Source: a virus
Strand: one strand, 5' to 3'
DNA length: 64,000 nt
IMG/VR virus record: IMGVR_UViG_3300046453_000179
Span: 1-64,000 of that record
Shown: in pieces, positions 5,094-54,929 of the stretch
Layout of the letters: each line of letters opens with the position of its first letter
Position numbering within the stretch: position 1 is the stretch's first letter
The notes under the pieces: generated by a model
Seen by the model: only the letters and a program-made list of their open reading frames with translations
The model's database searches: none
Told to the model about the DNA's origin: nothing
Translations under genes and position numbers: made by a program

Positions 5094-5948
5094 TTAATAC
5101 CCTTCGATTTGAAGTGGTGCGGAGTAAATGTTGAAACTCGATGCGCTGATAGCGTCGAGGTTGGTGATGCGGCCGTAGACCATGTGCTGCTGCTCCAGCA
5201 CCGGATCGGCATTCTCTGGGAACAGGCTGCACAGCAGCGGGCGAACCGTGCCGCACTCGTCCACGATACGGGCCAGCCGCGCGCGGTCGGCCGGCGTCAG
5301 AAACTCCAGGTTGATGTTGAGCAGCTTGTGGCGTGTGCCGACGTTGGTTTTCGCGCCGCCGGCGGCTGTGCGGTACCCCTCGCTGGTATCCACCTGCGTC
5401 AGGCTGGCGCCGTAGCTCGCGTTGTATTCCGGCGCCCAATACATGCCGGCGACCAGGCGCGACACTTCGAGGTAGCCGTCAGGGTTGTCGACCGACGAAA
5501 GGTCGATGACCAGCTGACGAACGCTGACCGGCTCAAACCAGGCCACGCCATCCGAGCCGCCGCCGCGCGCCCAGGTGTTCACACCGCCCCATTTGTAGCC
5601 GTTCCAGCCCAGCGGCAGGTAGCCGAACGGAGAAGCGCCCAGCGGCGCCTCCGGGCATGGAAGCATCAGGCCAGTGTCGAGCACCGGCACCGCGTCGCCC
5701 AACCGCTCATAGCCTCGCACGCGCATGCGCGCCGAGCTGTTCATGTTCGTGCGCATCGGCGCCACACAGCCGATCAGTTCGGCTGTGGGCCACGTGGCCG
5801 TGATCGTCACTCCGGTACCGGTGGCGCGCAGCACCGCCGACCGCTCGTCGCGCTGCAGGTTGGCCGGGCCCAGCGTGCCGGCCTGGCTCGACGCCGTCAG
5901 CACCGCGCGATCGATGGCATTGTCGTGGAGGATTCGTAGGTTGTTCAA
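5094..5948 (-). CDS. Tail structural protein (distal tail/adhesion module)
   Basis: A 284-residue protein without a signal peptide or membrane segment, mostly beta-strand-like with many Trp, Tyr and Gly. Its place among the last tail genes points to a baseplate or tail-tip component; a carbohydrate-binding role is possible but not shown. It overlaps the upstream gene by four bases (ATGA) and ends 2 bp before the fibre gene, so the set is translated as a unit. The specific family was not recognised. Confidence 0.68.
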   Translation of the reverse strand: MNNLRILHDNAIDRAVLTASSQAGTLGPANLQRDERSAVLRATGTGVTITATWPTAELIGCVAPMRTNMNSSARMRVRGYERLGDAVPVLDTGLMLPCPEAPLGASPFGYLPLGWNGYKWGGVNTWARGGGSDGVAWFEPVSVRQLVIDLSSVDNPDGYLEVSRLVAGMYWAPEYNASYGASLTQVDTSEGYRTAAGGAKTNVGTRHKLLNINLEFLTPADRARLARIVDECGTVRPLLCSLFPENADPVLEQQHMVYGRITNLDAISASSFNIYSAPLQIEGY

Positions 5949-50257: not shown

Positions 50258-51004
50258 ATGCCCGCACAACCACTATCATCTGAACAACTTTCCGAAGCTG
50301 CAGCGCTCAAAGAGCTCTTCAAGTCTTGGCAGGCAACTCGCAAGGAATCCGGCCTCCCCTCCTCTCAGGAAGCGGCAGCGGATATGCTCGGGTTCGGCCA
50401 AAGCGCACTTGCGCAATACCTCAACGGGAAAATCCCACTGAACATAGACGCGGGCGCCAAGTTTGCTGCTTTACTTGGTGTCGGCATGTCGGATTTCAGC
50501 CCATCACTTGCAGATCAAGCGGTTCGTGTGGCTGGATCGGTAACCGGCGTGCGCGTCACCGATGACGATGACCATGCACCCGCGACCATCGCAATTCAAA
50601 TGGTTTCCATGCACGTTCAGGCCGGCATCGACGATTTCGCCTTTGAGCCAATTCTCGATGAGGAGGGTCAGCATCATGTTCCGCGAAACTTCCTGGAAGA
50701 GAACGATCTGCGCCCTGCCGCGCTCGTTGCGGTAAAGGTCAAGGGTGACAGCATGCAGCCCCTCATGTACGAGGGGGACATCGCGGTTGTGAACACCACC
50801 GACCGCTCCCGCAAGAATGGCGGCGTGTTCGCCATGAACTACAACGGCCAGGCCGTCGTTAAACGTCTGGTCTATGATCGTCGCGAGTGGTATTTAGCGT
50901 CCGACAACCCCGAGTTCAAACCCGCTCCGTGTCGCGGCGCGGAGTGCATTGTCATCGGCCGGATTGTCCACTTCACCCCGAAAAATTTCAGGGATCGGCT
51001 TTGA
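50258..51004 (+). CDS. CI/LexA-like prophage repressor (S24 peptidase)
   Basis: A 248-residue repressor. The N-terminal helix-turn-helix lies at about residues 37-60 (SQEAAADMLGFGQSALAQYLNG). A linker contains the Ala122-Gly123 cleavage site, and the S24 peptidase domain has Ser165 (KGDSMQP) and Lys202 (QAVVKRL), the autocleavage pair. RecA-stimulated self-cleavage would induce the prophage. It maintains lysogeny by binding the four AGTCSGACT operators. It starts a plus-strand lysogenic operon with the three genes downstream. Confidence 0.92.
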   Translation: MPAQPLSSEQLSEAAALKELFKSWQATRKESGLPSSQEAAADMLGFGQSALAQYLNGKIPLNIDAGAKFAALLGVGMSDFSPSLADQAVRVAGSVTGVRVTDDDDHAPATIAIQMVSMHVQAGIDDFAFEPILDEEGQHHVPRNFLEENDLRPAALVAVKVKGDSMQPLMYEGDIAVVNTTDRSRKNGGVFAMNYNGQAVVKRLVYDRREWYLASDNPEFKPAPCRGAECIVIGRIVHFTPKNFRDRL

Positions 51005-52406: not shown

Positions 52407-52429
52407 AGCCCGCACCAGCGGGCTTTTTT
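52407..52429 (+). terminator. Intrinsic terminator of the repressor operon
   Basis: A perfect 7-bp stem (AGCCCGC / GCGGGCT) with loop ACCA and a run of six T. It separates the lysogenic operon from PL. Confidence 0.9.
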
Positions 52430-52531: not shown

Positions 52532-52560
52532 TTGACATATATAAGTAGTCGGACTAATAT
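52532..52560 (+). promoter_or_regulatory. PL-type early promoter
   Basis: TTGACA (52532-52537), a 17-bp spacer, and TAATAT (52555-52560). It has the same hexamers, spacer length and operator geometry as PR. Confidence 0.9.
52547..52555. promoter_or_regulatory. Operator OL-a, AGTCSGACT
   Basis: AGTCGGACT inside the PL spacer and abutting the -10 box. Confidence 0.82.
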
Positions 52561-53432: not shown

Positions 53433-53771
53433 GTGAAGAAAATCATTGTAGTAACAGCGCTGTTGACCGCCCTCGCCGCTCACGCAGCACCAGTCGAAAA
53501 GCAGTGCGCCGCGCTGGCCAAGGTCGCTGATGTTGTCGTGTTGTTGAAGGCCCAGGGTGCACCGGAAGCACAGGTACAGAAAGAGCTCAACGGCGAGAAG
53601 CCGGACCGCCGCCTGGGTCAAGCCATCCGCGACGTGTACGCCGGCGCCAGCTCTGCGCAAGTCAAGGCCGAGTGTCTGGCCGATGCCGCGCCCGGCCCGC
53701 TGCGCCCTGGTCGCACGCCCACTGACTCGAACGGCGCGCAATCGATCAGCGACGTGCTGATCACGCACTAA
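53433..53771 (+). CDS. Secreted (periplasmic) early protein
   Basis: A 112-residue protein with a clear signal peptide: KK, a hydrophobic core, then AHAA cleavage before APVEKQ. The mature domain is about 90 residues with three Cys and the helical segment AKVADVVVLLKAQGAPEAQVQKEL. A secreted product in a phage early operon is unusual; interference with incoming DNA entry or with cell-envelope processes is possible. No family recognised. Confidence 0.7.
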   Translation: MKKIIVVTALLTALAAHAAPVEKQCAALAKVADVVVLLKAQGAPEAQVQKELNGEKPDRRLGQAIRDVYAGASSAQVKAECLADAAPGPLRPGRTPTDSNGAQSISDVLITH

Positions 53772-53784
53772 ACCGAATGCGGTC

Positions 53785-53807
53785 GCCGGGCGCTGCTACC
53801 GCCCGGC
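53785..53807 (+). other. 8-bp GC hairpin after the secreted-protein gene
   Basis: Stem GCCGGGCG / CGCCCGGC with a 7-base loop and no T run. It may be an RNA structure element or an mRNA 3' boundary within the PL operon. Confidence 0.5.
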
Positions 53808-53921
53808 TAGTCCTGGCCAAGCGAAGAAACCGGCCCAGTGGGATCTGAAATGCTCGCGTCGCACTCGCCCCGTGCCGCCGGCCGGCGTATCCGGCCACCA
53901 CCAACCATAGAAAGGCATCAC

Positions 53922-54104
53922 ATGGCAGCAGCTACCCCGACCTCTTTCAAACCTGGCCAGAAGGTCACCGTCCGCGCCCGCAGCAAGGTCGTGCAAGGAA
54001 AGTTCCTCAAGGAGCGCCCAGGTGCAAAAGGTCCGTACTACGACATCGACCTGGGCGACAACAAGGTCGGCAGCTACCGCCCTTCGCAGGTGCAGGCGGC
54101 GTGA
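53922..54104 (+). CDS. Small basic KOW/SH3-like protein
   Basis: A 60-residue basic protein (FKPGQKVTVRARSKVVQGKFLKE...DLGDNKVGSYRPSQVQ), with the pattern of a small SH3/KOW barrel that might bind nucleic acid. It sits between two strongly structured non-coding stretches (53785..53807 and 54111..54321). The ATG at 53922 was chosen; the extension upstream has no coherent protein pattern. Confidence 0.6.
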   Translation: MAAATPTSFKPGQKVTVRARSKVVQGKFLKERPGAKGPYYDIDLGDNKVGSYRPSQVQAA

Positions 54105-54110
54105 CACAAC

Positions 54111-54281
54111 GGCGGCGTTAAGGCCGCCAGTACTACCCGTCCCGCGCCGGGCAAGCGCGGGAACCACAAGTGATCCGGTTGCAATAAGGGTGGACGGTCC
54201 GTCTGCAGACGCGCCGGCAATCCGCACCAACCTGCTGGTGTCGCCCGAATACGTGGGCCACGCAGCCGGATCACTTGTGGT
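54111..54281 (+). ncRNA. Candidate structured RNA with 20-bp closing stem and multi-branched core
   Basis: No convincing gene lies between 54105 and 54399. The stretch contains, in order: a 6-bp hairpin (54111-54116 with 54123-54128); a 7-bp hairpin (54140-54146 with 54156-54162); and, directly next to it, a long stem 54163-54182 paired with 54262-54281, 19 Watson-Crick pairs and one G-U. Inside that stem lie three hairpins: CGTC-TGCA-GACG (54200-54211), CACCA/TGGTG (54225-54240) and GCCC/GGGC (54243-54258). A further 6-bp stem (54293-54298 with 54316-54321) lies downstream. This could be an operon RNA element, an antitermination-type RNA or a small RNA. It was folded by eye only; the strand is inferred from the operon. 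Confidence 0.6.
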
Positions 54282-54399
54282 GTAGCGCCGAAATGGGAGA
54301 AAGACGGCCCTTGAATCCCATCTAAAAACAATAGCAGCAGTAGCTGGGCCTGACCGGGGCAGAACCGGTACCAACAACGAAAAGAACAGGGAGAGCGCG

Positions 54400-54711
54400 A
54401 TGCGCGAGGTGAAGATTTTCAAGTGGGAGCGACGAAACATCAAAGGCAAGCTCACCACCGTCAAGGAACTTGAGACGGTCGGTTGGTTTCACCAGTTCGC
54501 CCAAGACGACAGCGGAGAAGGCTTACAGATTCCGGTTGCGGTAGTGGAGCTTGCCGACGGCACCGTTCGCGCCGTCTACGCGGAAATGGTGCAGTTTTTG
54601 GAGCACCGCGAAGGCGCCGACCTGGTCACAGCGCTGCGTCAAATCGCCAAGAACGAAAGCAGCGAAGGTTACATCGCCATGCGCGCCCTGACCGCAGCGG
54701 GTGTTGCATGA
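54400..54711 (+). CDS. PL-operon protein, unknown, after the structured stretch
   Basis: A 103-residue soluble protein (REVKIFKWERRNIKGKLTTVKELETVGWFHQF at the N-terminus), alpha/beta, with an acidic C-terminal half. AGGGAG lies before the ATG. It overlaps the next gene by four bases. Unrecognised. Confidence 0.6.
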   Translation: MREVKIFKWERRNIKGKLTTVKELETVGWFHQFAQDDSGEGLQIPVAVVELADGTVRAVYAEMVQFLEHREGADLVTALRQIAKNESSEGYIAMRALTAAGVA

Positions 54712-54929
54712 CGCTGCGCCACATCACCGCAGGCCGCGCCTCGCGCCTCGCCGTGTCGAGCGCCCTGGCCTTCGACTATCAGGACAGTGGCTTTGAGGAT
54801 GCGCTCACCGTCGGCAACCTCGACGCGGTTGAGCACGTGCCCGCCGGCGGCTGCTACGGCGCGCCCGCCACCGCCAGCCGCAACGCCATCCGCCTGCAAC
54901 TGACCGACCGTGAAGGAGCCGCATTTTGA
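54708..54929 (+). CDS. Small early protein
   Basis: A 73-residue protein (TLRHITAGRASRLAVSSALAFDYQDSGFED...). It overlaps the previous stop and the next start. Small, soluble and Ala-rich. Function unknown. Confidence 0.55.
   Translation: MTLRHITAGRASRLAVSSALAFDYQDSGFEDALTVGNLDAVEHVPAGGCYGAPATASRNAIRLQLTDREGAAF

Follow-up and report, generated by a model that had tools for sequence, protein, structure and literature searches.

The first 64,000 nucleotides of the IMG/VR virus record IMGVR_UViG_3300046453_000179 (hereafter the window), a contig of 67 kb with the layout of a lambda-type prophage, contain a large structured RNA element in the PL operon. The probable PL promoter (TTGACA-17-TAATAT, 52532..52560, plus strand) was found by a consensus scan inside an inverted repeat resembling a repressor operator, and would start the transcript containing the element; it is followed by small genes and then by those encoding an ERF single-strand annealing protein and a YqaJ exonuclease. 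The element lies about 1.5 kb downstream of this promoter, in the 295 bp that separate the gene of a 60-residue basic protein from a gene of 103 residues (54400-54711). Comparison with related loci shows a modular RNA locus in which a constant handle encloses cores that are exchanged from phage to phage; the locus belongs to prophages of Duganella and relatives, and the element is one of its cassettes.

The central feature is a closing stem of 20 pairs (54163..54182 with 54262..54281), 19 of them Watson-Crick and one U.G; no other stem in the window with a loop of 40-260 nucleotides is as good. This stem encloses a core interior (54183..54261), here called type A, that consists of an unpaired AAUAA followed by three hairpins (about 54190-54225, with an inner hairpin at 54195-54216; 54224-54241; 54243-54258). 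A GC hairpin of 8 bp with a 7-nt loop (54140..54162) directly abuts the closing stem and, because the two meet without a linker, it is likely to be coaxially stacked on it. This hairpin belongs to the constant handle, together with the outermost six pairs of the stem, ACCACA (54163..54168) with TGTGGT (54276..54281), which we call the clamp and which enclose different cores in different phages. A further 6-bp GC hairpin upstream, GGCGGC-GTTAAG-GCCGCC (54111..54128), is accessory: it varies between phages, and it is found in close relatives but not in the locus L025 described below. Behind the closing stem, a second module, of type 2a (54282..54370), contains a 6-bp stem (54290-54318) and a hairpin (54353-54369), the latter reading ACCGG/CCGGT in the window and GCCGG/CCGGC in the locus L079. 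All these features are on the plus strand, and the element is 119-142 nt long. A preliminary description of the region had listed the 20-pair stem, the hairpins before it, the three-hairpin core and the 6-bp stem after it, and every one of them was recovered at exactly the positions given there.

Such dense pairing had been judged unlikely by chance, and folding bears this out. On the plus strand, 54080-54340 folds at -124.8 kcal/mol, against -97.5 +/- 5.3 kcal/mol for 200 dinucleotide shuffles, none of which is as good (z -5.19); for the minus strand of the same region z is -2.56. The fold belongs to no family that we could recognise: none of the 4227 families of Rfam 15 reaches its gathering score in the 64 kb window, and the best match of 53750-54420 at E<=10 is a 14-bit chance match. 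The element does not score as a tRNA: no RF00005 match was obtained in the whole-window scan or at E up to 10, and a tRNA scan of the window found none. Compared with INPHARED phages and PLSDB plasmids, the DNA of the element gave chance pieces only, and the protein encoded beside it has no INPHARED match.

Pattern scans recovered type A in three other loci, L007 (IMGVR 3300031084_000035), L008 (3300031133_000013, identical over the unit) and L025, which is the same as L087 and corresponds to a prophage of Duganella guangzhouensis FT80W. A pattern made of the stem only matched 45 stretches, mostly by chance, and only those with an extended 7-bp outer match were kept. In the alignment of the three distinct type-A sequences 97.4% of the cells are paired, and three pairs in the interior of core A are changed on both sides in L007 or L025, with pairing kept; when the partners are slid by 1-3 columns, pairing falls below 40% and both-sided changes drop to zero. 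No reading frame is open throughout type A: whichever of the six is read, a stop interrupts it in the window, L007 or L025. The relatives thus keep the fold and share no frame across it, and neither translation across the region nor folding at the level of shuffles without covariation was found; the claim of the preliminary description, a large structured non-coding RNA in the PL operon, is upheld.

Many prophages share the GC hairpin and the six clamp pairs but enclose entirely different sequence in them. At this one position and in the same handle we catalogued 16 types of core, designated A to N and including B' and F1/F2; pairwise blastn between representatives of the core types gave chance-level or marginal matches only, and on this basis the 16 types are apparently unrelated to each other. 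The clamp runs on into a long stem that is specific to each type and, with few exceptions, 15 to 24 pairs long. The handle hairpin exists in a compensated variant in relatives (CCTGCGC/GCGCAGG vs CCCGCGC/GCGCGGG), and there is also a second version of the handle, in which the hairpin CGCCGG-CGTAA-CCGGCG is followed immediately by GCCAACA...TGTTGGC (clamp CCAACA/TGTTGG). Core F1 is found both in the first clamp (L025, L209) and in the second (L226), and handle and core are therefore separable.

Within a core type, loops and hairpins are conserved while the stems covary. In three copies of core F1 seven pairs are changed on both sides, a figure that one of 500 shuffles reaches, and core B is 98.8% paired, with none of 500 shuffles as good. 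The z-scores of plus and minus strands across all units are mixed. In four Duganella-type genomes we found no convincing host origin or host target for cores A, B and C. A long hairpin was seen in a further phage contig, L065, where 5252-5346 form 30 pairs over 40 positions around a 15-nt loop.

One of the cores has the fold of a tRNA. Core C of relatives passes the Rfam tRNA cut-off on the plus strand (35.8 and 34.8 bits, the cut-off being 29), and its three copies are paired in 100% of the cells, with both-sided changes in the acceptor, D and T stems. The anticodon arm is improper, with 3 contiguous pairs, a loop AGCGCGA/CGCGCGA and a G instead of U at position 33; the acceptor continues into the clamp, and no CCA is encoded. 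Core C is the strongest argument for the units acting as RNA, and for their doing so on the plus strand. Moreover, T-arm-like hairpins are present in core E and in modules 2d, 2f and 2g, and several islands finish in a CCA-terminated tRNA-like sequence.

Cores C, E, F1 and F2 may descend from a tRNA-like ancestor, because they share a terminal T-arm-like hairpin. In L058, L070, L025 and L141, which carry these cores, this hairpin (GCTGG...CCAGC) is immediately adjacent to the closing stem's 3' strand. The CCA-terminated island ends of L118, L138, L142 and L173 are tRNA-like, seemingly without a normal D arm (for example GCCCCG...GTTCGATTCCCTGC CGGGGC GCCA), and the one in L118 is called neither by ARAGORN nor by Rfam. 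In module 2d of L006 and L142 (CTTGTG...GGTTCGAA.CC...CACAAG) the T stem of this tRNA-like module varies by compensated substitutions, CATGG/CCATG vs CGCGG/CCGCG. In the islands of L058 (4845-4928) and L076 (4674-4757) ARAGORN calls a tRNA whose anticodon has four bases (aact).

The position of the unit is fixed. As an anchor that avoids the bias of an RNA-based search we used a conserved protein of 73 residues, whose gene (54708..54929, plus strand) lies downstream of the RNA island. Through this anchor the unit was found at 18 of 19 loci on viral contigs, L136 being the one without it, and at all 15 strong loci in 394 Oxalobacteraceae genomes, the two sets being partly overlapping. A search of 19 related phage records with the type-A unit model gave one full-length unit per record in 16, with differing cores. 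The model matched 11 of the 394 Oxalobacteraceae genomes; among 379 Burkholderiales genomes its sole match was a Duganella genome already known. Units always lie between two genes and in constant orientation, as a rule one per phage record, and L025/L087 has two in tandem, the first with core A and the second with core F1, and neither shares its GC hairpin or clamp with the other. What follows the unit is modular as well and reshuffled between phages: core B is seen with four different second modules (2b, 2c, 2d and 2e) and with several tails; module 2a, that of the window, occurs behind core A and core B'.

The fold, its conservation, the swapping of cores as well as downstream modules, and the tRNA-like core are computational results; transcription, processing, action in trans and a counter-defence role are what we infer from them. 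We give an even chance to a function in which the unit, carried in the PL transcript, is processed at the long stem and delivers a core that acts in trans as an early RNA effector of host takeover or counter-defence. Transcribed on the plus strand as part of the PL transcript, the unit would be released by cleavage around the long stem, as happens at the processing stems of rRNA and tRNA precursors, or the stem would protect the RNA. The released or stably folded core would then act early in infection or induction by binding a host or defence component, and an arms race or host specificity would account for the exchange of cores. Three observations make us prefer action in trans: loops and internal hairpins are conserved in the cores, one core at least mimics a tRNA, and unrelated items exchanged at a fixed early position resemble phage accessory effector loci. 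The larger proposal, that a constant handle displaying interchangeable effector cores, tRNA mimics included, from the early operon constitutes an undescribed RNA weapon of phages, is put forward tentatively.

Several points weigh against the preferred explanation. Type A is represented by just three distinct sequences with a nearly invariant 20-bp stem. Covariation in related phages, which the preliminary description had named as a check, was found at the three pairs changed on both sides, but for core A alone it is thin, most measures lying within the range of shuffles; it is modest because the 20-pair stem is almost invariant. The wobbles of the closing stems (13 G.U vs 6 A.C) lean weakly to the plus strand. 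No defence target was found, nor a promoter or terminator of the unit's own, and the fixed position would also be explained if the unit acted in cis on the PL mRNA.

Such a cis element of the mRNA is the main rival. The stem would be an RNase III site or a structure of stability or insulation, set between the upstream genes and the recombination genes; its existence alone would matter, so that its sequence may change freely. Long perfect stems of arbitrary sequence, in a fixed intergenic position and constant orientation, are what this explanation would lead one to see, and so is the constant junction of hairpin and stem. The cores, however, are not arbitrary, since loops and hairpins are kept within a type while the stems covary, and a simple processing site has no need of a core with a tRNA fold and of more tRNA-like modules behind it; we consider the cis explanation rather unlikely. 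An effect at the level of DNA appears improbable. According to it the locus would be a recombination or replication site (a cruciform or single-strand hairpin, attC-like), with the RNA fold as a by-product, as the exchange of cores exactly at the clamps, the good folding of closing stems on either strand and A.C mismatches that are not rare might suggest; yet a tRNA fold kept by both-sided changes in three of its stems is a feature of RNA, one-sided changes in the stem of core B give G.U far more commonly than A.C, and by inspection the clamps do not match the attC boxes RYYYAAC/GTTRRRY. The degenerate tRNA-like pieces within the islands could also be taken as signs of tRNA or other RNA genes acquired by phages and decaying without function, but both-sided changes keep the pairing in divergent copies and nearly all loci retain the unit, so that decay is very doubtful.

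The preliminary description had offered three options, namely a phage small RNA, a put-like antitermination RNA and an mRNA processing element, of which the first and the last both still stand. A put-like RNA would act in cis on RNA polymerase; put antitermination acts through the zinc-binding domain of the beta' subunit. The put RNAs of HK022 are about 70 nt long and have two stem-loops, putL and putR are alike, and putL lies just downstream of PL (PMC9378689). The element resembles them as a structured phage RNA in the early operon of a lambda-like phage, and no obvious N protein had been noticed in the earlier reading of the sequence. It is, however, about twice as long, with a closing stem, a three-hairpin core and a 5' hairpin in place of two stem-loops; it lies about 1.5 kb after PL and not next to it; and it is present in one copy in the 67 kb record, whereas put has a second similar copy in the PR operon. 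Moreover put acts in cis, while the sequence of the element is exchanged between phages, its position being filled by unrelated sequences elsewhere. We therefore regard put-like antitermination as extremely improbable.

Other known systems share parts of this organisation. RNase III processing stalks, known from rRNA precursors and from T7/lambda early mRNAs, are long double-stranded stems around an independently folded RNA, as in the unit, but here the enclosed RNA is swapped as a cassette, and cutting would be the conjectural part of the likeness. Bacterial Y RNA-like RNAs (YrlA) have a long stem formed by their ends and, in some members, a tRNA-like module, both of which occur in the units; unlike in YrlA, the cores are mostly not tRNA-like, the Rfam scans gave no Y-RNA match and no Ro-binding motif was recognised. 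Integron attC sites bound exchangeable cassettes with short inverted sequences and fold as single strands, which is also true of the units, but the ends here are ACCACA/TGTGGT or GCCAACA/TGTTGGC and the cassettes are folded RNAs, not protein genes. Phage tRNAs and tRNA-array islands are discussed as anti-defence (for example PMC12803027, PMC13096335). Like the locus described here, such an island groups genes for small structured RNAs within a mobile element, and the likeness extends to the one core type and the several downstream modules that are tRNA-like; the differences are that most cores here are not tRNAs, that the first cassette is held in a constant hairpin-plus-clamp handle, and that the tRNA-like core has neither an encoded CCA nor a normal anticodon arm. 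In Rfam and in a limited search of open-access literature we found no counterpart to a constant handle with unrelated exchangeable RNA cores. This architecture appears to be new, the newness being one of architecture and not of function.

Phage anti-defence and host-takeover loci are fixed places where differing protein genes are swapped. Here it is folded RNAs, including a tRNA mimic, that are swapped within a constant RNA handle, and the locus is carried, among early genes, by a group of viruses of soil bacteria. If the trans interpretation is true, it would be an RNA counterpart to the swappable anti-defence protein genes of phages, and each of the 16 cores would be a candidate for an RNA that acts on a host factor as inhibitor, decoy or trigger; even with action in cis, the locus would show a phage operon that tolerates and exchanges large folded RNA domains. 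The clamp-to-clamp interval in the PL operon of Oxalobacteraceae prophages provides a rule for finding more cores.

The 60-residue basic protein is encoded outside the RNA, at 53922..54104 on the plus strand, 53922 being the true start. It is predicted to form a five-stranded SH3/Tudor-like barrel (predicted local distance difference test, pLDDT, 79.7) and resembles Tudor/chromo/SH3-like (KOW-like) barrels, with a best Foldseek E of 5e-3; no Pfam family matches it at the family's cut-off. Its gene is often directly upstream of the RNA island, and since it is not always so (L025, L070 and L142 are exceptions) the RNA does not need it as an immediate neighbour. An 8-bp hairpin at 53785-53807 is not part of the element, and the suggestion that this hairpin and the element bracket the 60-residue protein did not hold, as L025 has the same element behind a different gene.

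The rest of the control region is that of a lambda-type phage: a Cro-like gene on the minus strand, a repressor with helix-turn-helix and peptidase S24 domains (50258-51004) and a terminator-like site (52407-52424). A boxA/nut-like repeated motif was considered and rejected, CCAACAACGAA being present exactly once. The inverted repeat at PL, TTAGTCCGACT...AGTCGGACTAA, is likely a repressor operator, and a divergent PR-like promoter (50210-50182, minus strand) has the same TTGACA/TAATAT arrangement as the PL-like one.
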